Source of the DNA: Candidatus Polarisedimenticolaceae bacterium
GTDB lineage: Bacteria; Acidobacteriota; Polarisedimenticolia; Polarisedimenticolales; DASRJG01
NCBI GenBank assembly: GCA_036275915.1
Contig: DASUCV010000011.1
Location: forward strand, 248,001 to 312,000
DNA length: 64,000 bases
Direction: 5' to 3'
The notes under the pieces were generated by a model. That model ran no database searches. It was not told the origin of the DNA and worked only from the letters and a program-made list of their open reading frames with translations. Positions 2,870 through 17,056 of this stretch are shown piece by piece (the first letter of the stretch is position 1; each line of letters opens with the position of its first letter). Position numbers and translations under genes: made by a program.

Positions 2870-3481
2870 ATGGCATTCGAACTCCCCCCGCTCCCGTACG
2901 CCTTCGACGCCCTCGAGCCTCACATCGATGCGCGGACGATGGAGATCCATCACGACAAGCATCACGCCGCTTACGTGACGAACTTGAACAAGGCGCTCGA
3001 AGCACATCCGACGTTCCAGACGCAGTCGCTCCATCAGATCCTGAGCGGCCTCGCGAAGGTGCCCGAGGCGGTCCGGACCGCGGTGCGCAACAACGGCGGC
3101 GGCCACTACAACCACACCCTCTTCTGGACGCTCATGAAGAAGGGCGCGGGAGGCGAGCCGAAGGGCGGCCTCAAGACGGCGATCGACGGAGCGTTCGGCT
3201 CGTTCGCGGAGTTCAAGGCGAAGTTCGCGGCCGCGGGGCTCGGCCGGTTCGGCTCGGGCTGGGCGTGGCTCGCGGTCCGGGACGGCAAGCTCGGGATCGA
3301 GTCGACGCCGAACCAGGACTCGCCGGTCATGGACGGCGGCGTGCCGGTTCTCGGCTGCGACGTCTGGGAGCACGCGTACTACCTGAAGTACCAGAACAGG
3401 CGCGCCGACTACATCGAGGCGTGGTGGAGCGTCGTCGATTGGTCGAAGGCGGACGAGCTCTACACCGCGGCGAAGGCCTGA
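2870..3481 (+). CDS. sodA: Superoxide dismutase, Mn/Fe family (Mn-type features)
   Basis: Converts superoxide to hydrogen peroxide and oxygen. At 203 residues it has standard length and no signal peptide, so it should be cytoplasmic. The four metal ligands are visible: His27 (EIHHDKHH), His82 ([11 protein letters not shown]), Asp164 and His168 ([12 protein letters not shown]). The GGG before the second histidine and the Gln in [10 protein letters not shown] are typical of manganese enzymes, although cambialistic activity cannot be excluded. The ATG at 2870 follows a strong AGGAGG. A M48 protease gene begins 16 nt downstream and is likely co-transcribed. Confidence 0.96.
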
Positions 3482-4428: not shown

Positions 4429-4989
4429 ATCGAGTGCGAGGTTCAAGCGGAGGACGTTCACGCGGGGCTCGCCCAGGAGGCCGAGCGTGCGGCCCTCGGT
4501 GGTGTCGTCGATCAGCGCGCGGATGCGCTCGGGGTCGAGGGCGCGCGCCTTCGCGATGCGCGGCACTTGCCATAGGGCGGCTTCCGGCGACACGTGTGGG
4601 TCGAGCCCGCTGCCGGAAGTGGTCACGAGCTCGATCGGCACGGGGCCGGACGCATCGGGATTCTCGGTCTCGAGGCGTGTGACGTCGGCCGCGATGCGGT
4701 CGATGAGCGCCTTCGACGTCGGGCCGAGGTTCGAGCCGGACGACGCGCTCGCGTCGTAGCCGTCCTTGCCGGCGGCGGACGGTCTCGGCTGAAAGTACTT
4801 CGGGTCGCGGAAGCCCTGGCCGATCAGCTCCGATCCGACGACGACCCCGTCGCGCGTCACCAAGCTCCCGGCGGCCTGGCGGGGAAAGACCGCGCGCGCG
4901 ATCGCGGTCACCGCGAGCGGGTACGCGATGCCGGTCAAGACCAGCGTGACGACGGTCATCCGGAGCGCGACGGCGAGGTCACGGCGCAC
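4417..4989 (-). CDS. kdpC: Potassium-transporting ATPase subunit C
   Basis: KdpC of the KdpFABC K+ pump, 190 residues. One N-terminal membrane helix ([19 protein letters not shown]) precedes a periplasmic domain with the family motifs [16 protein letters not shown] and [17 protein letters not shown]. It stabilises the complex and raises the potassium affinity of KdpA. The start is GTG at 4989, 9 nt after the kdpB stop, with AGGAG in front. It is the last gene of the operon and ends inside the REP-like palindrome. Confidence 0.97.
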
Positions 4990-4998
4990 GCACGACTC

Positions 4999-7050
4999 CT
5001 ACGTGAGACCGATCGCGCCGAGGATCATGTCGATCAGCTTGATCCCGACGAACGGTGCGACGAGCCCGCCGACGCCGTAGATCAGGATCGATCGGCGGAG
5101 GAGCGCCGCGGCGCCGAGCGGGCGGTAGCGCACCCCTCGGAGCGCGAGCGGAATCAGGGCGACGATGATGAGCGCGTTGAAGATGACCGCGGAGAGGATC
5201 GCGCTCCGCGGCGAGGCGAGGTGCATCACGTTGAGCGGCGCGATCTCGGGGAAGACGGGGATGAAGAGCGCCGGGAGGATCGCGAAGTATTTCGCGACGT
5301 CGTTCGAGATCGAAAACGTCGTCAGACACCCGCGCGTCATGAGGAGCTGCTTGCCGACCTCGACCACCTCGAGGAGCTTCGTCGGGTTGCTGTCGAGGTC
5401 GACCATGTTGCCGGCCTCGCGCGCCGCTTGCGTTCCGGTGTTCATCGCGATCGCGACGTCGGCCTGAGCGAGCGCGGGCGCATCGTTCGTGCCGTCGCCG
5501 GTCATTGCGACGAGCTTGCCCTTCGCCTGCTCCTCGCGGATGAGCTTCAGCTTCATCTCGGGCGTCGCCTCGGCCAGGAAGGTGTCGACGCCGGCCTCGG
5601 CGGCGATCGCGGCGGCGGTGAGGGGGTTGTCGCCGGTGATCATGACGGTCCGGAGGCCCATCGACCGGAACTTCGCAAATCGCTCCTTCAGCCCGCCCTT
5701 CACGATGTCCTTGAGATGGATGACGCCGAGCACCCGGGGACCGTCGGCCACCGCGAGCGGAGTGCCTCCGGACCTCGCGATCGTCGCGACGATCGTCTCG
5801 ATTCCCACCGGGAGGCGGCCGCCGAGCGCTTCGACGTGGCGCGCGATCGCGTCGACCGCCCCTTTCCGGATGACGCGGCCGTCGAGGTCGCATCCGCTCA
5901 TCCGCGTTTGCGCGGAGAACGCGACGAAGCGGGCGCCCTGATCGCCGATCTCGCGTCCTCGCAGGCCGTAGCGCTCCTTGGCGAGCACGACGATCGAGCG
6001 GCCCTCCGGCGTCTCGTCGGCGAGCGAGGCGAGCTGCGCGGCGTCGGCCAGCTCGTCCCTCGTCGCGCCGTCGGCGGTCAGGAACTCGGTCGCCATGCGG
6101 TTGCCGAGCGTGATCGTGCCGGTCTTGTCGAGGAGGATCGTGTCGACGTCGCCCGCGGCCTCGACGGCGCGTCCGCTCAGCGGGATGACGTTGTGGCGGA
6201 TCAGCCGGTCCATCCCCGCGATTCCGATGGCGGAGAGCAGGCCCCCGATCGTCGTCGGGATCAGGCAGACGAGGAGCGCGACGATGACGGGGGTCGTGAG
6301 CTGAAGCCCCGAATAAACCCCGATCGGCACCAGGGTCACGCAGGCGATGAGGAAGATGATCGTCATTCCCGAGAGCATCACGTGAAGGGCAATCTCGTTC
6401 GGCGTCTTCCGGCGCGTTGCGCCCTCGACGAGACCGATCATGCGGTCGAGGAACGACTCGCCGGGATCGACGCCGATCCGGACGACGATCCGGTCGGAGA
6501 GGACGCGCGTGCCACCGGTCACCGCAGAGCGATCGCCGCCGCTCTCGCGGATGACCGGCGCCGACTCGCCCGTGATCGCCGACTCGTCGACCGATGCGAT
6601 CCCCTCGATGACCTCGCCGTCGCCCGGAATCGTCTCGCCCGTCTCGACGACGACCTCGTCGCCGCGCCGCAGCGCCGACGCGGGCACGCTCTCCTCGCGC
6701 GCGCCCGCGCGCCGGCGTGCGACCGTCTCTTTCCGGAGGCCGCGCAGCGCGTCGGCCTGCGCTTTCCCGCGTCCCTCCGCGAGCGCTTCGGAGAAATTCG
6801 CGAAGACGATCGTGAACCAGAGCCACAGCGCCACCTGGAGCGTGAACCACGCCGGTGCGGCGGGAGGGGCGGAGGAGAGCGCGTCGCGGATCCCGATGAG
6901 CGTCGTGACGGCGCTTCCCACTTCCACCACGAACATGACCGGGTTCCTCGCGGCGACGCGCGGGTCGAGCTTCCGCAGGCTGTCGGCGAGCGCCGCACGC
7001 ACGATCGGGCCGCTCCACGCGGACGCGCGACGGGGCCGAGCGGCGGGCAT
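4999..7050 (-). CDS. kdpB: Potassium-transporting P-type ATPase subunit B
   Basis: Catalytic P-type ATPase of KdpFABC, 683 residues, which powers high-affinity K+ uptake. DKTGT carries the phosphorylated Asp308, and the actuator loop is TGES (160-163), whose serine is the inhibitory phosphorylation site in the E. coli enzyme. The phosphatase motif [21 protein letters not shown] and the family segment [21 protein letters not shown] are also present. The start at 7050 ([10 protein letters not shown]) shares one nucleotide with the kdpA stop (TGATG), which indicates translational coupling. Confidence 0.98.
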
Positions 7051-8744
7051 CAGAAGACCTTGCCGGTGTTCGCGAGCACGTGCTCGACGGCCGGGCCGAG
7101 GGCGAGGGCGGGGAAGAAGGTGAGCGCGCCGACGACGAGGATCACGCCGACGACGAGCCCCGCGAAGAGCGGCCCCGCCGTCGGCAACGTTCCCGGCCCG
7201 GGCGCGACCACCTTCTTCGCGGCGAGGCTGCCGGCGATCGCCAGCGCCGGCACGATCATGAGGAACCGCCCCGCGAGCATCGCGATCGCGAGGGTCACGT
7301 TGTACCAGGGTGTGTTCGCGTTCAGTCCCGCGAACGCAGAGCCGTTGTTGCCGGCGGCGCTCGTGAAGGCGTACAGGATCTCGGAGAATCCGTGGGGACC
7401 CGCGTTCGCCAGGGACGAGGTTCCGTACGGGGCCACCGCGGACCACCCCGCGAAGGCGAGGATGACGAGAGGGAAGATGAGGACGTAGAGCATCGCGAGC
7501 TGCACCTCGCGCGTCTCGATCTTCTTCCCGAGGTACTCGGGAGTCCGGCCGACCATGAGCCCCGCGATGAAGACCGACAGGATCGCCATCACGAGGATTC
7601 CGTAGAGCCCCGCGCCGACGCCGCCGAACACCACCTCGCCCATCTGGATGTCGAAGAGCGGCACGAGACCCCCGAGCGGGGTGAAGCTGTCGTGCATGCC
7701 GTTGACCGCGCCGCACGAGGCGTCGGTCGTCACGACGGCGTAGAGAGCGGTGTTCGCGATGCCGAAGCGGACCTCCTTACCCTCCCAGTTGCCTTCGCCG
7801 CGCGTGACCGCGAGACGATCGACGATCGGGTTGCCGCGGGCCTCGGCCCAGTAGGCGACCCCGACGCCGCCCGCGAAGAGGAACGCCATCGCGCCGAAAA
7901 GGGCCCAGCCCTGCTTCTGATCCTTCGCCATCCTGCCGAACGCGTACGTGAGCCCGGCGGGAATCACGAAGATGAGGAACATCGAAAGGTAGTTCGTGAG
8001 CGGCGTGGGATTCTCGAACGGGTGCGCGGCGTTCGCGTTGAAGAAGCCGCCGCCGTTCGTGCCGAGCTGCTTGATCGCCTCCTGCGAGGCGACGGGGCCC
8101 ATGGCGATCGTCTGCGTCCGTCCCTCGAGCGTCGTCGCTTCCCTGGAGGGCGCCAAGTTCTGGATCACTCCCTGGGACACGAAGAGCAGCGCGAAGACGA
8201 TCGACGCCGGCAGAAGCACATGAACGGTCGCACGCGTCAGATCGACCCAGAAGTTGCCGATCGTCGGCGACTCGCGACGCGTCAGCCCGCGCGCGAGCGC
8301 GAAGGCGACCGCGATCCCCGCGGCGGCCGAGATGAAGTTGTGCCACGCGAGCCCGGCCATTTGGCTCAGGTAGCTCATCGTCGTCTCGCCGGCGTAGCCC
8401 TGCCAGTTCGTGTTCGTCGTGAAGCTCGCCGCGGTGTTGAACGCGGAGCCGGCCGCGACCGGCCCCAGATGCTGCGGGTTCCACGGCAGCAGGAGCTGGA
8501 GGCGCTGGATCGCGTACGTGACGAGCATCGTCGCCGCGCTGAAGACGAGCAGGCTCGCGGCGTACCGCGCCCAGCTCTGCTCCTCACCGTCGGCGCGGGA
8601 CAAGCGAAGGACGAGGCGCTCGAGACCGCCGAGCGGACGGAGCTCGCCTTCCATCACGCGGTGAAGGAAGATCCCGACCGGGCGCGTGACGAGGAGCACC
8701 GTCGCGAAGAAGAAGACGATCTGGGCCCATCCATTGAACGTCAT
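7050..8744 (-). CDS. kdpA: Potassium-transporting ATPase subunit A (K+ channel subunit)
   Basis: Channel-like subunit that binds and translocates K+, 564 residues with about ten membrane helices. The four degenerate selectivity-filter loops are recognisable: [39 protein letters not shown] and [11 protein letters not shown]. The start at MTFNGWAQ is chosen because it overlaps the kdpF stop by one nucleotide (TGATG) and matches the family N-terminus. Confidence 0.98.
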
Positions 8745-8833
8745 CAGAAGCGCTCCGGCTTCAAGAGCGCGTAGACGAGATAGCCGAGGAGCAAGAGCGC
8801 CAGGAGAAGGCCGGCGGCGTACTCGACGCTCAT
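8744..8833 (-). CDS. kdpF: Potassium-transporting ATPase subunit F (29 residues)
   Basis: Single-helix lipid-like stabiliser of the KdpFABC complex. The 29-residue peptide begins MSVEYAAGLLLALLLLGYL and ends LLKPERF, matching the KdpF pattern in which the helix is followed by a short LLxPERF tail. It overlaps the kdpA start by 1 nt, and its ATG overlaps the stop of the preceding small gene (ATGA). Confidence 0.9.
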   Translation of the reverse strand: MSVEYAAGLLLALLLLGYLVYALLKPERF

Positions 8834-8928
8834 CGCGAGCCCCGAACGATGCGGTCGCACCAGCGGACGTACGCAAGGCAGACCCCGAAGAAGAGCGCCG
8901 TGGCGGCGACGAACGCGACGTCGAGCAT
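8830..8928 (-). CDS. 32-residue single-helix membrane peptide upstream of kdpF
   Basis: Small frame of 32 codons starting with ATG at 8928. It encodes a hydrophobic stretch (MLDVAFVAATALFFGVCLAY) followed by a basic cytoplasmic-type tail (VRWCDRIVRGSR). It begins directly after the porin stop with no gap, and its TGA overlaps the kdpF ATG as ATGA. It is therefore locked into the operon by exact junctions on both sides. I recall similar unannotated peptides ending in AYVxxCDR beside kdpF in other bacteria, but could not check this. A plausible role is an extra single-span accessory of the K+ pump. Coding status is inferred from the junctions and helix. Confidence 0.65.
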   Translation of the reverse strand: MLDVAFVAATALFFGVCLAYVRWCDRIVRGSR

Positions 8929-10227
8929 TCAGATCTTGACCAGGATGGCGAGGGTGAACCGGTTCTCGGTTTTCACGAGATCGGGAGACCAACCGGGAAC
9001 CGGCGTCGCCGGCGTCCCGGTGTTCCCTCCGGGCGGTGTGATCCCGCCGGGCCCGGAGAAGTAGGGGACGCTCGCGAACCTATGGTTGAATTCGGCGCGA
9101 AACGTGACGAACGGCGACGGCATCCAATCGAACGTCGCCGAGGCGTCCCAGGCCCGGTAAGGGTCGCCGGGCGCCGCGGTGAAGTACGGCGAGCCGGTCG
9201 TGGCGGTCGCGCCGTTGATCGGAGGGATGAGCACGAGGTAGCGGCCGGGGTTGTCGATCGCGCCGCCGCCCAGCGTCACGGCGTAGCGATCGCGAGCGAA
9301 CCAGAGGCGGCCGTACGTCATGAAACCCAGGAAGTACTGAGAGCCGCAGCCGACACCTCCGCCCGATTCGCAGCCGGCGTCGAGTGTGAGCGTCATCGCT
9401 CCCTTGGAAAGCGCCGCCGCGGGCCGGTCGTAGAACTTCCACTGAACGCTGTCGTCGGTGTGAAGGCGCTTCCGGTCGGCGATCCCGAGCGTGTCGGTGC
9501 CGTAGTACTGGTTGCCGAGAATCGAGAGCGATCCGTTCGGCCTAAAGAGAACCTGGACGCCGAATCCGGGCGCGTCGTTGAATTTGCCGTACGACTGCCA
9601 TCCGTTCACGATCCAAGGCTCGATCTTGAGCTTGTCGCTCGGGAAGATCTGGACGCGCACGCCGTTGAAGAACCACGGCGTGTTCGACGACACGAACGAC
9701 GGCTGGTAAGCCCAGTTGTCGAACTGGTAGTAGCTGAACAGACCGACGTACGACATGAAGATCCCGGCGTCGACGTTGATGCCGTTCATGACGTCGAAGT
9801 GGTAACCGCCGTACGCCTCCGACAGATACCGGTAGGCGCCATCGAGGTTCCACTGCCCGCGAGAAGTGCTCGCGTCGTTCCTCGGGGTCGTCTGCGAGTA
9901 CATGCCGAGCTGCGTCATGAGACGGCCGCGCACGTTCTTCCAATGGAGGTCGCCGCCGGCGCCGAGCTGCGTGAGCTGGAACTCGCCCGACCGGAAGATC
10001 TCGCTCGACCCGCCGATCGTGTCGTCCTGGGGATGATCGAGGCTCTCCGTGTAGTTCACGTCGATGCGGAACTCCGCGGTGAACACGTCGTTGCCGAGCG
10101 GTGACTCGTTCGTGCGGGGGTTGCCCGTCAGCCAGGTGAAATCCGCGAAGGTGAACGGCTCCGGCGGCGCGGCGCAGGCGCTTCTTGCCGCGAAAAGAAC
10201 GGCGGCGGCAAGCGTCACGCATCGCAT
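8929..10227 (-). CDS. Outer-membrane beta-barrel porin linked to kdp
   Basis: Protein of 432 residues with a signal peptide (MRCVTLAAAVLFAARSACA). The mature part is rich in aromatic, alternating strands (YGGYHFDVMNGINVDAG, WFFNGVRVQIFPSDKLKIE), and the terminal strand ENRFTLAILVKI ends the protein, typical of outer-membrane barrels. It resembles the BBP2-type putative porins. As first gene of the kdp operon it may let K+ or another solute cross the outer membrane when potassium is scarce. It faces kdpD across a 121-nt regulatory gap. Confidence 0.8.
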   Translation of the reverse strand: MRCVTLAAAVLFAARSACAAPPEPFTFADFTWLTGNPRTNESPLGNDVFTAEFRIDVNYTESLDHPQDDTIGGSSEIFRSGEFQLTQLGAGGDLHWKNVRGRLMTQLGMYSQTTPRNDASTSRGQWNLDGAYRYLSEAYGGYHFDVMNGINVDAGIFMSYVGLFSYYQFDNWAYQPSFVSSNTPWFFNGVRVQIFPSDKLKIEPWIVNGWQSYGKFNDAPGFGVQVLFRPNGSLSILGNQYYGTDTLGIADRKRLHTDDSVQWKFYDRPAAALSKGAMTLTLDAGCESGGGVGCGSQYFLGFMTYGRLWFARDRYAVTLGGGAIDNPGRYLVLIPPINGATATTGSPYFTAAPGDPYRAWDASATFDWMPSPFVTFRAEFNHRFASVPYFSGPGGITPPGGNTGTPATPVPGWSPDLVKTENRFTLAILVKI

Positions 10228-10348: not shown

Positions 10349-13012
10349 GTGGGTGAATTCGCCACACGCGCCGACCCCGACGCGCTGCTCCGGCGCGTCC
10401 AAGCGGACGAGGCTCGAAGCGGCCGCGCCAAGCTCAAGATCTACTTCGGGTTCGCCCCGGGCGTCGGCAAGACGTTCGCGATGCTCGAGACCGCGCGCTC
10501 GCTCGCGGCCGCCGGCGCCGACGTCCTCGTCGGCTGCGTCGAGACACACGGCCGGAGCGAGACGCAGGCGCTGCTCGATGGGCTCGCCGTCCTGCCGCGG
10601 CGCGCGGTGGAGTACCGCGGCGTCACGCTGCAAGAGTTCGACCTCGAGGCGGCGCTCGAGCGGAAGCCGGCGATCCTCCTCCTCGACGAGCTGGCGCACA
10701 CGAACGCGCCGGGCGTGATCCATGCGAAGCGCTGGCAGGACGCGCTCGATCTCCTGGACGCCGGCATCGAGGTCCACACGACCCTGAACGTGCAACATGT
10801 CGAGAGCCTGAACGACGTCGTCACGCGCATCACGACGGTGCGGGTACGCGAGACCGTGCCCGACGCGCTTCTCGAGCGGGCCGATCAGATCGAGCTCATC
10901 GACCTCCCGGCCGATGCGCTGCTGGCACGCCTGCGTGAGGGGAAGGTCTACGTCCCCGACCTCGCGGCGCGCGCGCTCGAGAGCTTCTTCCGCGAGGGGA
11001 ATCTCCTTGCCCTTCGCGAGATCGCCCTGCGGCGGACCGCGGACATCATCGACGCCGACGTCCGCGCGTACCGCGAGGCGCACGCGATCGCCACGCCGTG
11101 GCCCACCGCGGAGCGGATCGTCGTCGGCGTCGGTCCAAGCCCCTCCTCGGCCGGCCTCCTCCGCTCGGCGCGCCGGATGGCCGACGGTCTTCGCGGGTCG
11201 TGGACGGCGGTGTGGGTCGAAGGATCACGACCCCTCGGCGACGACGACCGGCACCGTCTCGAGGCGAACCTCAGGCTCGCGGAGTCGCTCGGCGGCACCG
11301 TCGTGCGCCTCTCCGGCACGAGCCGCGCCGACGCGATTCTCCGCTATGCACGGCGCCACAACGCGACGCGCCTCATCATCGGCCGTCCGACGCGCTCGCG
11401 GTTGCGCGATCTCCTGCGCGGCTCCCTCCTCGAGGAGCTGGTGCGCGGGAGCGGGGGCATCGACGTCCATGTGATCTCGGGCGCCGCATCCGAGGAGGCG
11501 CTTCCTCTCTCCGAGACCTCCGAGCGCCCGAGCGAGTGGCCCGCGTACCTCCTCGCCGCCCAGCTCGTCGCCGTCGCCACGATCGTCTCGTTCGTCGTCG
11601 ATGCCTACCTGGCGCCCGCCGACACCGTCATGACGTTCCTGGTCGCGATCATCGTGTCGGCGCTGCGCGTCGGGCGCGGGCCGTCCGTCTTCGCCGCGGC
11701 GCTGTCGGTCGCGGCGTACGACTTCTTCTTCGTCGGGCCGCGCTTCACCTTCGCGGTCTCGGACACGCGGCACGTCCTCACCTTCGCGATGATGTTCGGG
11801 GTCGGGATCCTCCTGAGCGAGCTGACGCGCCGGCTTCGAACGCAAGAGCGCGAGGCGCGCCGTCGCGAGGCGTACACGGCCGCTCTGTTCGCCTTGGCGC
11901 GCGATCTCGGCGCCGCGGCCGACAAGCCCTCGGTCGCGGGGGCGATCGCCGCGCGCGCTTCGGACGCGTTCAACGGGACCGTCGCGGTGCTCCTGGCGGA
12001 AGGGGAAGGTGAGCTCCGGGAAGTGGCGCGCTCCGGCGATGCCGTCCTCGATGCGCGCGACCGCGGCGTCGCCCGATGGGCGCACGAGCACGGGCGTCCA
12101 GCGGGCCTCGGCACCGACACGCTCCCCGGCGCGGCGGCGGCGTGCGTTCCCCTTCGCACCGATGCCCGAGGTCTGGGCGTGATCGCCTTCGTGCCGCGCG
12201 TGCCCGGACGGGTCCTGGACGGCGAGCAGCGGCATCTCCTGGAGGCGCTCGCGCGCCAGGCGGCGCTCGCGATCGAGCGCGTCGTCCTCGCGGCGGAGGC
12301 GAAGGCGTCGGAGCTGCGCGCGCGCACCGAGAACATGCGCAGCTCGCTCCTGTCGGCGGTGTCGCACGACCTCCGGACGCCGCTCGCCGCCATCACCGGC
12401 GCCGCGACCTCGCTTCGCGGCGACGAGGCGGCGGTGCACCCGGAGCAGCGGCGCGAGCTGATCGAGACCATCTGCGAGGAGTCGACGCGCCTCGAGCGGC
12501 TCGTCGCGAATCTCCTCGAGATGACGAGGGTCGAGGCCGGCGCGATCGAGGTCCACCGCGAATGGGTTCCGGCCGAGGAGATCGTCGGCGCCGTCCTCAC
12601 GCGGCTCGAGGGCGCGCTCGCCGGCCGGCCGGTCCACACGAGCCTCGATCCCGCGCTGCCACTTCTGCCGGTCGACCCCGTGCTCGTCGAGCAGGTGCTG
12701 ATGAACCTCATCGACAACGCGATCAAGCACACTCCGGCGGGATCTCCGATCGATGTGTTCGTCACCGGCGACGCCGATCGGATCATGATCGAGGTCGCCG
12801 ATCGCGGACCGGGGCTGGCTCCCGGCTCCGAGGAGCAGGTCTTCCAGAAGTTCCATCGTGGCGCCGCACCGGGAATTCCGGGCGTCGGCCTCGGTCTCGC
12901 GATCTGCCGCGGCATCGTCGAGGCGCACGGCGGCACGATCAAGGCCGCGAGCCGCACCGGCGGCGGCGCGAACTTCACCGTGACGCTGCCGGTCGTCGGG
13001 TCGGCGCCTTGA
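10349..13012 (+). CDS. kdpD: Osmosensitive K+ channel sensor histidine kinase KdpD
   Basis: Inner-membrane sensor kinase controlling kdp expression, 887 residues. Domains in order: KdpD N-terminal ATP-binding domain with Walker A GFAPGVGKT (34-42) and LLLDELAHTN; a Usp-like domain; four membrane helices of the DUF4118 type (about 395-500); a GAF-like region; HisKA with SAVSHDLRTPLAAI, where His673 has the same number as the E. coli phosphorylation site; and an HATPase with NLIDNAIKH and GVGLGLAICRG. I chose the GTG at 10349: it has no Shine-Dalgarno, but TACACA lies 8 nt before it. An in-frame GTG at 10331 is the alternative. The last bases overlap kdpE. Confidence 0.96.
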   Translation: MGEFATRADPDALLRRVQADEARSGRAKLKIYFGFAPGVGKTFAMLETARSLAAAGADVLVGCVETHGRSETQALLDGLAVLPRRAVEYRGVTLQEFDLEAALERKPAILLLDELAHTNAPGVIHAKRWQDALDLLDAGIEVHTTLNVQHVESLNDVVTRITTVRVRETVPDALLERADQIELIDLPADALLARLREGKVYVPDLAARALESFFREGNLLALREIALRRTADIIDADVRAYREAHAIATPWPTAERIVVGVGPSPSSAGLLRSARRMADGLRGSWTAVWVEGSRPLGDDDRHRLEANLRLAESLGGTVVRLSGTSRADAILRYARRHNATRLIIGRPTRSRLRDLLRGSLLEELVRGSGGIDVHVISGAASEEALPLSETSERPSEWPAYLLAAQLVAVATIVSFVVDAYLAPADTVMTFLVAIIVSALRVGRGPSVFAAALSVAAYDFFFVGPRFTFAVSDTRHVLTFAMMFGVGILLSELTRRLRTQEREARRREAYTAALFALARDLGAAADKPSVAGAIAARASDAFNGTVAVLLAEGEGELREVARSGDAVLDARDRGVARWAHEHGRPAGLGTDTLPGAAAACVPLRTDARGLGVIAFVPRVPGRVLDGEQRHLLEALARQAALAIERVVLAAEAKASELRARTENMRSSLLSAVSHDLRTPLAAITGAATSLRGDEAAVHPEQRRELIETICEESTRLERLVANLLEMTRVEAGAIEVHREWVPAEEIVGAVLTRLEGALAGRPVHTSLDPALPLLPVDPVLVEQVLMNLIDNAIKHTPAGSPIDVFVTGDADRIMIEVADRGPGLAPGSEEQVFQKFHRGAAPGIPGVGLGLAICRGIVEAHGGTIKAASRTGGGANFTVTLPVVGSAP

Positions 13013-15211: not shown

Positions 15212-17056
15212 TCAGCGGCGGCTAAGCGTCGTCGGGCCGGCTTTCAGCGTGGTGGGCGGAGGCGCCGTGGTCGCCTGCACGGTCCGGCCGACCTTGGTCA
15301 GGTGCGTCCGGAACGGGAGCTCTCCGCGCACGAGGACCGAGTCGCCCCAAACGGCGGTATCGCCCCAGACCGCGGTGTCCCCCCACACGGCGGTGTCGCC
15401 CCAGACGGCGGTGTCACCCCACACGGCCGTGTCGCCCCACACCGCCGTGTCGCCCCACACCGCCGTGTCGCTCCACACAGCGGTGTCGCCCCAGAGCTGG
15501 CCGATGTCCTCGATCCAGACGACCCCGACGAGGCTGGGGTCCTCGTAGACGTGGGGTGACGGCGCGCGCTCCGCGACCTGGGTCGCCGCGAGCGCGCCGG
15601 GGAGGTTCACGAGGCCGGCGCCGAAGGTGAACGGCGATTTGCCCATCCGCTGCGCCGACGCCATGAGCCGCGCCTTCACCGTCGCCGGAGTGAGCGACGG
15701 GTCCTTCTCGAGCATCTGGGCGACGACGCCGGTCACGATGGGCGCCGACATGCTCGTCCCCGACAGCTCGAAATAGTTCGTCTGTGCGAAGAGGAGGAGC
15801 GGGTCCTTGGTGTACGAGCGCAACGGGACCCTGAGCACCGGGAAGAGCGTGTCGAGCGTGCTCCCCGCGGCGCGCAGCGAGTCGATCCGGTTCCCCGGCG
15901 CGACGACGTCAGGCTTCAGGATGTGGTCGGGCCACGTCGGGCCGCGCGACGAATAGCTGGCGATGTCGTCGTCGCCGGTCGAACAGGTGCCGAGGTCCTT
16001 CGACGCGCCGACGGTGATCGCGTCCGGGGCGACGCCGGGGGAGGTGATCGATCCGAAGCCGAGCGAGCCGAAGTTCCCGGCCGAGACGACCACGACGATG
16101 CCGGCGGCGTTGAGCGCCTCGGCCGCCTGACACAGCGCATCCTTCGAGCACGTCTCGACGACCGGCGAGCCGAGCGACATGTTGACGACGCGGATTCCGT
16201 AGTCGACGTGATGATCGAGGACCCAGTCCACCGCCTTCAGCACGTCGACGACCTGGCCGGAGCCGTCGGCGCCGAGGACGCGCAAGGACACGAGCTTCAC
16301 GTCGGGCGCGACGCCCCGGAAGGTATGGATCGCATACGGCCCCGACGACGCGCTGCCGTTGCCGCCGATGATCCCCGCGACGTGCGTCCCGTGGCCGAAT
16401 TCATCGGACGCCGAGCCGCCCTGCGACGACCAGCGCAGCACGACACGGTCGACACCTGCCGCGTCGCGGAGATCCTGATTCGTCCCGATCCCCGAGTCGA
16501 TGACGGCGACGGTGACGCCGCGGCCGGTGTAGTCGGTGACCGGCACCGGCGTCGGCTGGGGGAGGATCGAGCTGACGGCCTGCACGAGGTTCGACGTCGT
16601 GTTGACGCCGCTCGAGGCGCCGATCGTGCAGAGCGCGGCATCGAACGACGACGGCGCAACGCGTCGGTTCGGCGCGATGTGCGTGCTCGCGGTGTCCGCC
16701 GCCAGATCGGCGAGCTTGTCCGCCGGCACCGTCGCGACGTAGCCGTTGAACGACTCGAACGCGCTCTTGTCGACCGTCCCGCCGAGCGACTGGATCAGGG
16801 CCGCGATGCGCGCCTGCTCGTCCGCGGTCATCGGGCGGTCGCTGCCGACGACGACCTGCATCATCGTCGCCGGCGTGACCGTCTCGACGATCTCCGCGAG
16901 GTCGTCGGCGACGTTCGCGAGATCGGTGAGGTCGATGACGGACGTCCCGCCGCCGCTGCCGCCGCTATCGATCGTCCCGGAAGCGGCGAATGCCGGAACG
17001 AAGCCGGCGATCGCGGCGATCAAGAGCGCGGACACGAATCGGGACCGGTTCGTCAT
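15212..17056 (-). CDS. Secreted S8 (subtilisin-like) serine protease with WGDTAV repeat tail
   Basis: Exported subtilase of 614 residues. A signal peptide (MTNRSRFVSALLIAAIAGFV...) is followed by an I9-type propeptide (about 70-135) and the peptidase domain with the catalytic triad Asp187 (VAVIDSGIG), His225 (GHGTHVAGIIGG) and Ser435 (SGTSMSAPIVTG). The C-terminal region holds nine hexapeptides of the WGDTAV type and then a basic end. The start is supported by GGAGA upstream. It probably degrades extracellular protein or matures surface proteins. It is divergent from selD. Confidence 0.95.
   Translation of the reverse strand: MTNRSRFVSALLIAAIAGFVPAFAASGTIDSGGSGGGTSVIDLTDLANVADDLAEIVETVTPATMMQVVVGSDRPMTADEQARIAALIQSLGGTVDKSAFESFNGYVATVPADKLADLAADTASTHIAPNRRVAPSSFDAALCTIGASSGVNTTSNLVQAVSSILPQPTPVPVTDYTGRGVTVAVIDSGIGTNQDLRDAAGVDRVVLRWSSQGGSASDEFGHGTHVAGIIGGNGSASSGPYAIHTFRGVAPDVKLVSLRVLGADGSGQVVDVLKAVDWVLDHHVDYGIRVVNMSLGSPVVETCSKDALCQAAEALNAAGIVVVVSAGNFGSLGFGSITSPGVAPDAITVGASKDLGTCSTGDDDIASYSSRGPTWPDHILKPDVVAPGNRIDSLRAAGSTLDTLFPVLRVPLRSYTKDPLLLFAQTNYFELSGTSMSAPIVTGVVAQMLEKDPSLTPATVKARLMASAQRMGKSPFTFGAGLVNLPGALAATQVAERAPSPHVYEDPSLVGVVWIEDIGQLWGDTAVWSDTAVWGDTAVWGDTAVWGDTAVWGDTAVWGDTAVWGDTAVWGDSVLVRGELPFRTHLTKVGRTVQATTAPPPTTLKAGPTTLSRR
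15332..15493 (-). repeat. 18-bp tandem repeat encoding WGDTAV hexapeptides (9 units)
   Basis: Nine consecutive 18-bp units, read on the minus strand as WGDTAV with one WSDTAV and a terminal WGDSVL. The units differ mainly at third positions, so the repeat is maintained at protein level, while neighbouring units are similar enough for slippage or recombination to alter the copy number. Confidence 0.9.

Follow-up and report, generated by a model that had tools for sequence, protein, structure and literature searches.

A widespread, apparently unnamed family of small genes accompanies the Kdp potassium pump in many phyla

The window, meaning the whole stretch of 64,000 nucleotides analysed here (contig DASUCV010000011.1 of a Candidatus Polarisedimenticolaceae bacterium), carries a kdp operon on its minus strand in the order porin, peptide, kdpF, kdpA, kdpB, kdpC (Table 1). 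The divergent kdpD has an open frame of 985 codons and belongs to the full-length class. The gene between porin and kdpF starts with ATG and encodes the 32 residues MLDVAFVAATALFFGVCLAYVRWCDRIVRGSR. Its start abuts the porin stop (TGA-ATG), its stop overlaps the kdpF start (ATGA), and kdpF in turn overlaps kdpA (TGATG), which sets the kdpA start at 8744. Position, frame, length, start codon and both junctions of the peptide gene are as the first-pass annotation had described them. AlphaFold, run on the single sequence, modelled one helix over residues 2-31 (mean pLDDT 94.7). No Pfam or NCBIfam family matched the window peptide up to E 10, and promoter and terminator scans around the operon junctions gave nothing above shuffled sequence. 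Elsewhere in the window (15212-17056, minus strand) is a 614-residue frame in which nearly identical WGDTAV repeats follow one another at the C terminus; from its motif we take it to resemble a subtilase.

Table 1. Features of the kdp locus in the window (positions are those of the window unless marked as contig)
Feature	Position	Strand	Evidence
Peptide gene (32-aa, single-span; kdp-associated family)	8830..8928	-	reading frame, family searches, AlphaFold helix
Peptide stop/kdpF start overlap ATGA	8830..8833	-	sequence
kdpF, K+-transporting ATPase subunit F, 29 aa	8744..8833	-	PF09604 E 1.6e-9, TIGR02115 E 9.9e-10
kdpA	7050..8744	-	PF03814 E 4.4e-238, TIGR00680
kdpB	frame ending at 4999	-	reading frame
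kdpC, matched stretch	4429..4971 (contig 252429-252971)	-	PF02669 E 7.5e-75
BBP2-type porin upstream of peptide	8929..10227	-	PF07642 E 8.4e-38
KdpD domain of divergent kdpD	10424..11044 (contig 258424-259044)	+	PF02702 E 2.3e-91

A first search with the plain 32-residue query against 100 relatives gave four top outside matches (E 3.8e-4 to 0.032), all just 5' of kdpA. A family profile was seeded with 54 clear relatives, then iterated, and applied to own-phylum kdpA loci, 80 named genomes, four other phylum samples and plasmid records. Upstream of kdpA, same-strand matches were found in 228/329 loci with the first profile and 240/329 with the iterated one, set against 1/329 and 0/329 on the opposite strand and 0-3/329 in each of five first-order resampled sequence sets per profile. 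E-values from these profiles are optimistic, since many of the same loci went into building them.

Over 325 readable kdp loci, the iterated profile detects the family upstream of kdpA in 238. This count leaves out L043 and L135, both truncated at contig ends, as well as two extra regions, L354 and L355, and it scores as misses L190, with a kdpA fragment only, and L309, a false match lying 536 bases upstream and devoid of the motif. Where tblastn found no kdpA start (26 loci), it was placed at a distance of 110 bases from the end of the region fetched. By sample, the family is present in 49/72 loci of the window's own phylum (Acidobacteriota), 48/64 of Pseudomonadota, 29/30 of Chloroflexota, 14/30 of Bacteroidota, 9/30 of Cyanobacteriota, 12/20 plasmid records and 77/79 named genomes, the last value being biased upwards because the 80 named loci are those closest to the window's KdpA. 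The four other phylum samples consist of the best KdpA scorers, plus later-fetched regions for one sample, and represent part of the kdpA found; the phylum name of each sample was inferred from the record title of a single member, in some cases a metagenome bin, and Cyanobacteriota is our reading of a Melainabacteria bin.

By NCBI label, the named-genome matches belong to Acidobacteriota, Myxococcota, Pseudomonadota, Gemmatimonadota, Elusimicrobiota, Bacteroidota, Chloroflexota, Verrucomicrobiota and Melainabacteria, some being single metagenome bins. One further member comes from a Deinococcus plasmid record, and four actinobacterial records gave weaker matches in which the Cys is absent. On pSymA of Sinorhizobium meliloti (L183 1018-1098), the Cys-less relative MSDFLFLAAGIGGLAALALYARALSRL stands right before the annotated kdpF, where the gene table is blank.

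The family follows the pattern M-x-D-x9-FF-x5-Y-V-x2-C-[DE]-[RK]-L with one helix, and its median length, counted from the aligned start, is 27 residues. Among 239 aligned members, D3 is found in 90%, F14 in 87%, F13 in 69% and Y20 in 62%, and towards the C terminus C24 in 79%, D/E25 in 78%, R/K26 in 75% and L27 in 69%. The first-pass annotation had tied its proposal to the conservation of a helix and a CDR tail upstream of kdpF in other genomes, and the helix, an acidic side chain at position 3, the FF pair and the C-[DE]-[RK]-L end indeed recur across phyla. The Cys of the tail is frequent and yet not universal, being absent from 25/48 members in the Pseudomonadota sample as well as from the four actinobacterial ones. 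Lys plus Arg average 0.03 in the N-terminal flank and 1.92 in the C-terminal flank of the 239 members, with more in the C flank in 228/239 and more in the N flank in none. This excess of positive residues on the C side predicts an orientation with the N terminus outside and the C terminus inside.

Selection was assessed in 65 independent pairs with 65-97% DNA identity. The Ka/Ks-type comparison that the first-pass annotation had suggested shows purifying selection on the peptide frame only, with pN/pS of 0.385 as compared to 1.163 and 1.365 in the other two frames. The test drew solely on profile-found loci, which may push pN down in the more distant pairs. For kdpF, 62 of the pairs gave 0.331, and omega of the 25 closest pairs (80-97% DNA identity) was 0.256. 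Start codons in the 239 members are ATG (n = 221), GTG (n = 15) and TTG (n = 2), with none in one member, and a purine-rich motif lies 5' of the start in 204/239. The window peptide has no such motif, and its translation would be coupled to that of the porin. Taken together, the 32-aa frame is a genuine gene of a widespread, apparently unnamed family that accompanies the Kdp pump in many phyla.

A comparison of 76 members with Pfam and NCBIfam gave no convincing family model. Weak matches to BcsF (PF11120; 7/76 members, best E 0.0024) and TIGR03493 (4/76, best E 0.0074), other single weak matches in these databases and the best PHROGs match of three members scanned (E 0.045) were not taken as kinship. 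A PDB profile search with the family returned two chance matches only (E 2.7). A keyword search of the open-access PMC literature found no description of the gene; according to an excerpt of PMC8552747, kdpF of Caulobacter is preceded by a structured 5' UTR some 100 nt long. In seven first-batch plasmid records with a relative, for which the PLSDB gene table is incomplete, the gene is entered as "hypothetical protein" (L181), as "potassium ABC transporter ATPase" (L185), which is a misleading name, or left blank (n = 5).

The gene also keeps company with kdpA on the scale of whole genomes. In 24 kdpA-bearing genomes searched entirely, 24 matches at E<1e-3 were obtained in 22 genomes, all 24 at kdp loci; match positions were set beside the kdp loci by hand, one of them (G274:C34) being judged by its kdpF and kdpD neighbours. 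Of 247 own-phylum genomes, 80 have a kdpA over the cut-off and 167 have none, and the peptide was found at E<=0.01 in 51, of which 49 have kdpA. Since the profile holds members from many own-phylum loci, positives come easily here, and it is the 167 genomes lacking kdpA that put the association to a fair test. The two exceptions are G246, whose assembly has no kdpA but where the match sits in a kdp-like locus truncated by the end of a contig, with KdpD-like and porin-like frames next to it, and G151, where it has an E of 0.0057, falls inside a 204-codon frame and is likely due to chance; otherwise the gene is, within the genomes searched, restricted to those with kdpA and inherited together with it. 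On a FastTree phylogeny of 241 KdpA sequences, presence changes 9 times over 239 tips, compared with a mean of 40.9 in 200 shuffles (minimum 36), L309 being scored as present in this count.

The peptide keeps to the operon and not to one spot before kdpF, as seen from altered gene orders. These include B-peptide-F-A-C in Deinococcus (L186), F-peptide-A in L344 and L347, peptide-A in L288 and L289 of the Cyanobacteriota sample, where the region fetched showed no kdpF, and peptide-porin-kdpF-kdpA in G156 (L375, G156:C281, 1453-4830), where the window has porin-peptide-kdpF-kdpA.

Relatives of the BBP2-type porin (phmmer E<=1e-3; E 1e-213 to 3e-9) occur in the fetched flanks of 33 other kdp loci, often directly upstream (L131, L123, L114, L125, L140 and L105 among them), and 4 of the 33 loci have no peptide. 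The porin may offer K+ a way in across the outer membrane and be produced jointly with the pump.

The peptide is missing in 87/325 readable loci. No family member was found upstream of kdpA in the one E. coli record examined (L184), in the Staphylococcus epidermidis, Halobacterium and Lactobacillales records examined, all of which have kdpF or kdpA, or in 21/30 loci of the Cyanobacteriota sample. Kdp loci without the peptide also make up a large own-phylum clade, and they occur among near relatives of the window, namely G001/L098 of the same family as well as L101 and L103 (KdpA 74% and 71% identical), whose genomes, searched whole, had no family match at E<1e-3. Other small frames were also seen at kdp loci. 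In L071, L077 and L084, from one own-phylum clade without the peptide, the kdpF region is preceded or overlapped by another hydrophobic frame. Two Lactobacillales plasmids (L187 1115-1378, L362 1114-1377) encode an 87-residue hypothetical protein upstream of kdpA that the profile does not match, and in Phyllobacterium L182 the annotation lists a hypothetical protein of 57 residues (3213-3386, WP_157929631.1) that separates kdpA from kdpB. KdpA chains in the PDB amount to three distinct 557-aa sequences in 25 entries, which according to the papers are of the E. coli pump; a pump that lacks the gene could not reveal the peptide in its structures.

The peptide might be related to KdpF or might serve its translation. 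As a single membrane helix encoded close upstream of kdpA, it resembles KdpF, and the two are alike in operon neighbourhood, length, translational coupling and pN/pS (0.33 for KdpF vs 0.39). Such similarity would fit an origin of the peptide by ancient tandem duplication of KdpF, with the copy now occupying another, pseudo-equivalent site on KdpA, as both have about 29 residues, a Tyr towards the C end and an acidic-basic-hydrophobic ending. The patterns differ, however: KdpF has a helix Y-L and a C-terminal P-E-[KR]-F, with Y18 and P26 invariant in 49 sequences, whereas the peptide has D3 and FF and ends in C-[DE]-[RK]-[LIV]. The curated KdpF models PF09604 and TIGR02115 matched none of the 76 members at E<=1 among the matches listed, although one member gave a weak match to the KdpF-named NF011326 (E 0.099). 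Profile comparison by hhalign left homology unsupported (probability 1.6%, one column aligned), profiles this short having little power, and we consider a tandem copy very unlikely. A KdpF profile match is present in 237/240 loci with a peptide match (L309 again scored as present), within 300 bases of kdpA in 230, which means that the peptide as a rule does not replace KdpF. A functionless leader frame that merely couples translation into kdpF would account for the tight spacing, since the peptide stop lies -11 to +20 bases from the kdpF start in 208/229 loci with an assigned kdpF start and the four-base ATGA overlap occurs in 51. Such a leader should always stand just 5' of kdpF and be free to vary in sequence, but the family has an amino-acid pattern and frame-specific purifying selection, and the peptide also occurs where no kdpF was found, after kdpF and before the porin. 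We consider a mere leader very unlikely.

Small membrane proteins that act on sensor kinases exist, MgrB being the model, and kdpD is the divergent neighbour in the window, so that the peptide could be the regulator of KdpD that the first-pass annotation had named as one option, acting on the membrane part of this sensor kinase. We classed KdpD by open frame as short (<500 codons), full-length (at least 850) or intermediate. In the own phylum, the peptide is present with 38/39 short, 1/2 intermediate and 10/31 full-length KdpD, and in 160 other genomes with 32/48 short (false match L309 excluded), 11/14 intermediate and 74/95 long KdpD as well as in 2/3 genomes with no detected KdpD. In both sets joined, 70/87 genomes with only short KdpD frames have the peptide, a count that covers KdpD frames alone, and frames below 500 codons are too short for the membrane and histidine-kinase part on which such a regulator depends. 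Together with the two genomes in which no KdpD was found, this disfavours regulation of KdpD as a general function, and we regard it as highly improbable. The peptide may instead switch the pump itself on or off without being a stable subunit, for example by aiding or blocking access of the KdpD serine-kinase domain to KdpB. Excerpts of PMC11018627 describe the KdpD N-terminal domain as a serine kinase that inhibits the pump by phosphorylating KdpB Ser162, and report a short KdpD without histidine kinase in some species and a histidine kinase on a separate chain in some phyla. The excess of the peptide with short KdpD in the own phylum agrees with a pump regulator, and a small protein in a pump operon can be a separate regulator. 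Against it, the association with short KdpD is gone in the wider set and is confounded by clade, and the peptide is there in two genomes without detected KdpD, so a pump regulator of this kind appears unlikely. Since it occurs alongside a kinase-less KdpD and in altered gene orders, the peptide follows the pump and not the KdpD sensor kinase, and is more than a leader for kdpF.

Beside regulation, the first-pass annotation had put forward an accessory subunit of the pump, and of its options this one fits best; judged from sequence and gene order, we hold an additional Kdp subunit with a single span to be reasonably likely. As such a subunit, the peptide would span the membrane once with its N terminus outside and a short cytoplasmic C-[DE]-[RK]-L end, and translational coupling would have it made in step with the pump. 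It would most plausibly bind KdpA/KdpF/KdpB within the membrane, next to KdpF or in its vicinity, and stabilise or tune the complex as is reported of KdpF, while the charged tail may meet the cytoplasmic face of the pump as a contact or a switch. The E. coli pump would then be a form without the peptide. Counting against a subunit, the peptide is dispensable, as its absence from 87 loci demonstrates. A coupling analysis of peptide, KdpF and KdpA speaks neither for nor against binding. Over 192 sequences (effective number 111), the top twelve peptide-KdpA pairs reached z 4.2-7.5, less than the strongest KdpF-KdpA pairs (up to 17.5), among which KdpF residue 3 and the KdpA C terminus predominate and alignment-end effects may be at work. 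More tentatively, and on balance doubtful, the Kdp machine of many bacteria could have five parts. The peptide would be its second small helix, an ancestral one, with a conserved cytoplasmic C-[DE]-[RK]-L end that helps to switch the pump, e.g., by positioning the actuator domain of KdpB or the serine kinase of KdpD, and the E. coli pump, from which the mechanism is known, would be reduced.

Most work on Kdp, a textbook system for K+ uptake, was done in E. coli, and if the peptide is a subunit, the parts list of the pump would change. The family would make differences between bacterial Kdp pumps testable and would correct annotation, as in the record with the ATPase name. Among known systems, Gassel is said to have reported in 1999 that KdpF stabilises the Kdp complex. 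An excerpt of PMC8385062 likewise credits KdpF, a subunit of one helix, with stabilising KdpFABC. Cyanobacterial KdpG is a parallel case of a gene added to a kdp operon, and the operon name kdpABGCD, given in PMC13099474, would put it between kdpB and kdpC, whereas the peptide lies upstream of kdpF.

Outside the Kdp system, small accessory proteins offer the closest analogies. MgtS is a small single-span accessory protein of MgtA. CydX of cytochrome bd (PMC4325964, excerpt) and AcrZ of AcrB (PMC7267776, excerpt) are, like the peptide, small, mostly of one helix and easily overlooked in annotation. The likeness to CydX, AcrZ and MgtS is one of working and is not drawn from sequence, and the partner of the peptide would be the Kdp pump by its gene neighbourhood. 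The peptide would thus represent a new family among the known small accessory helices and a new variant of the Kdp system.
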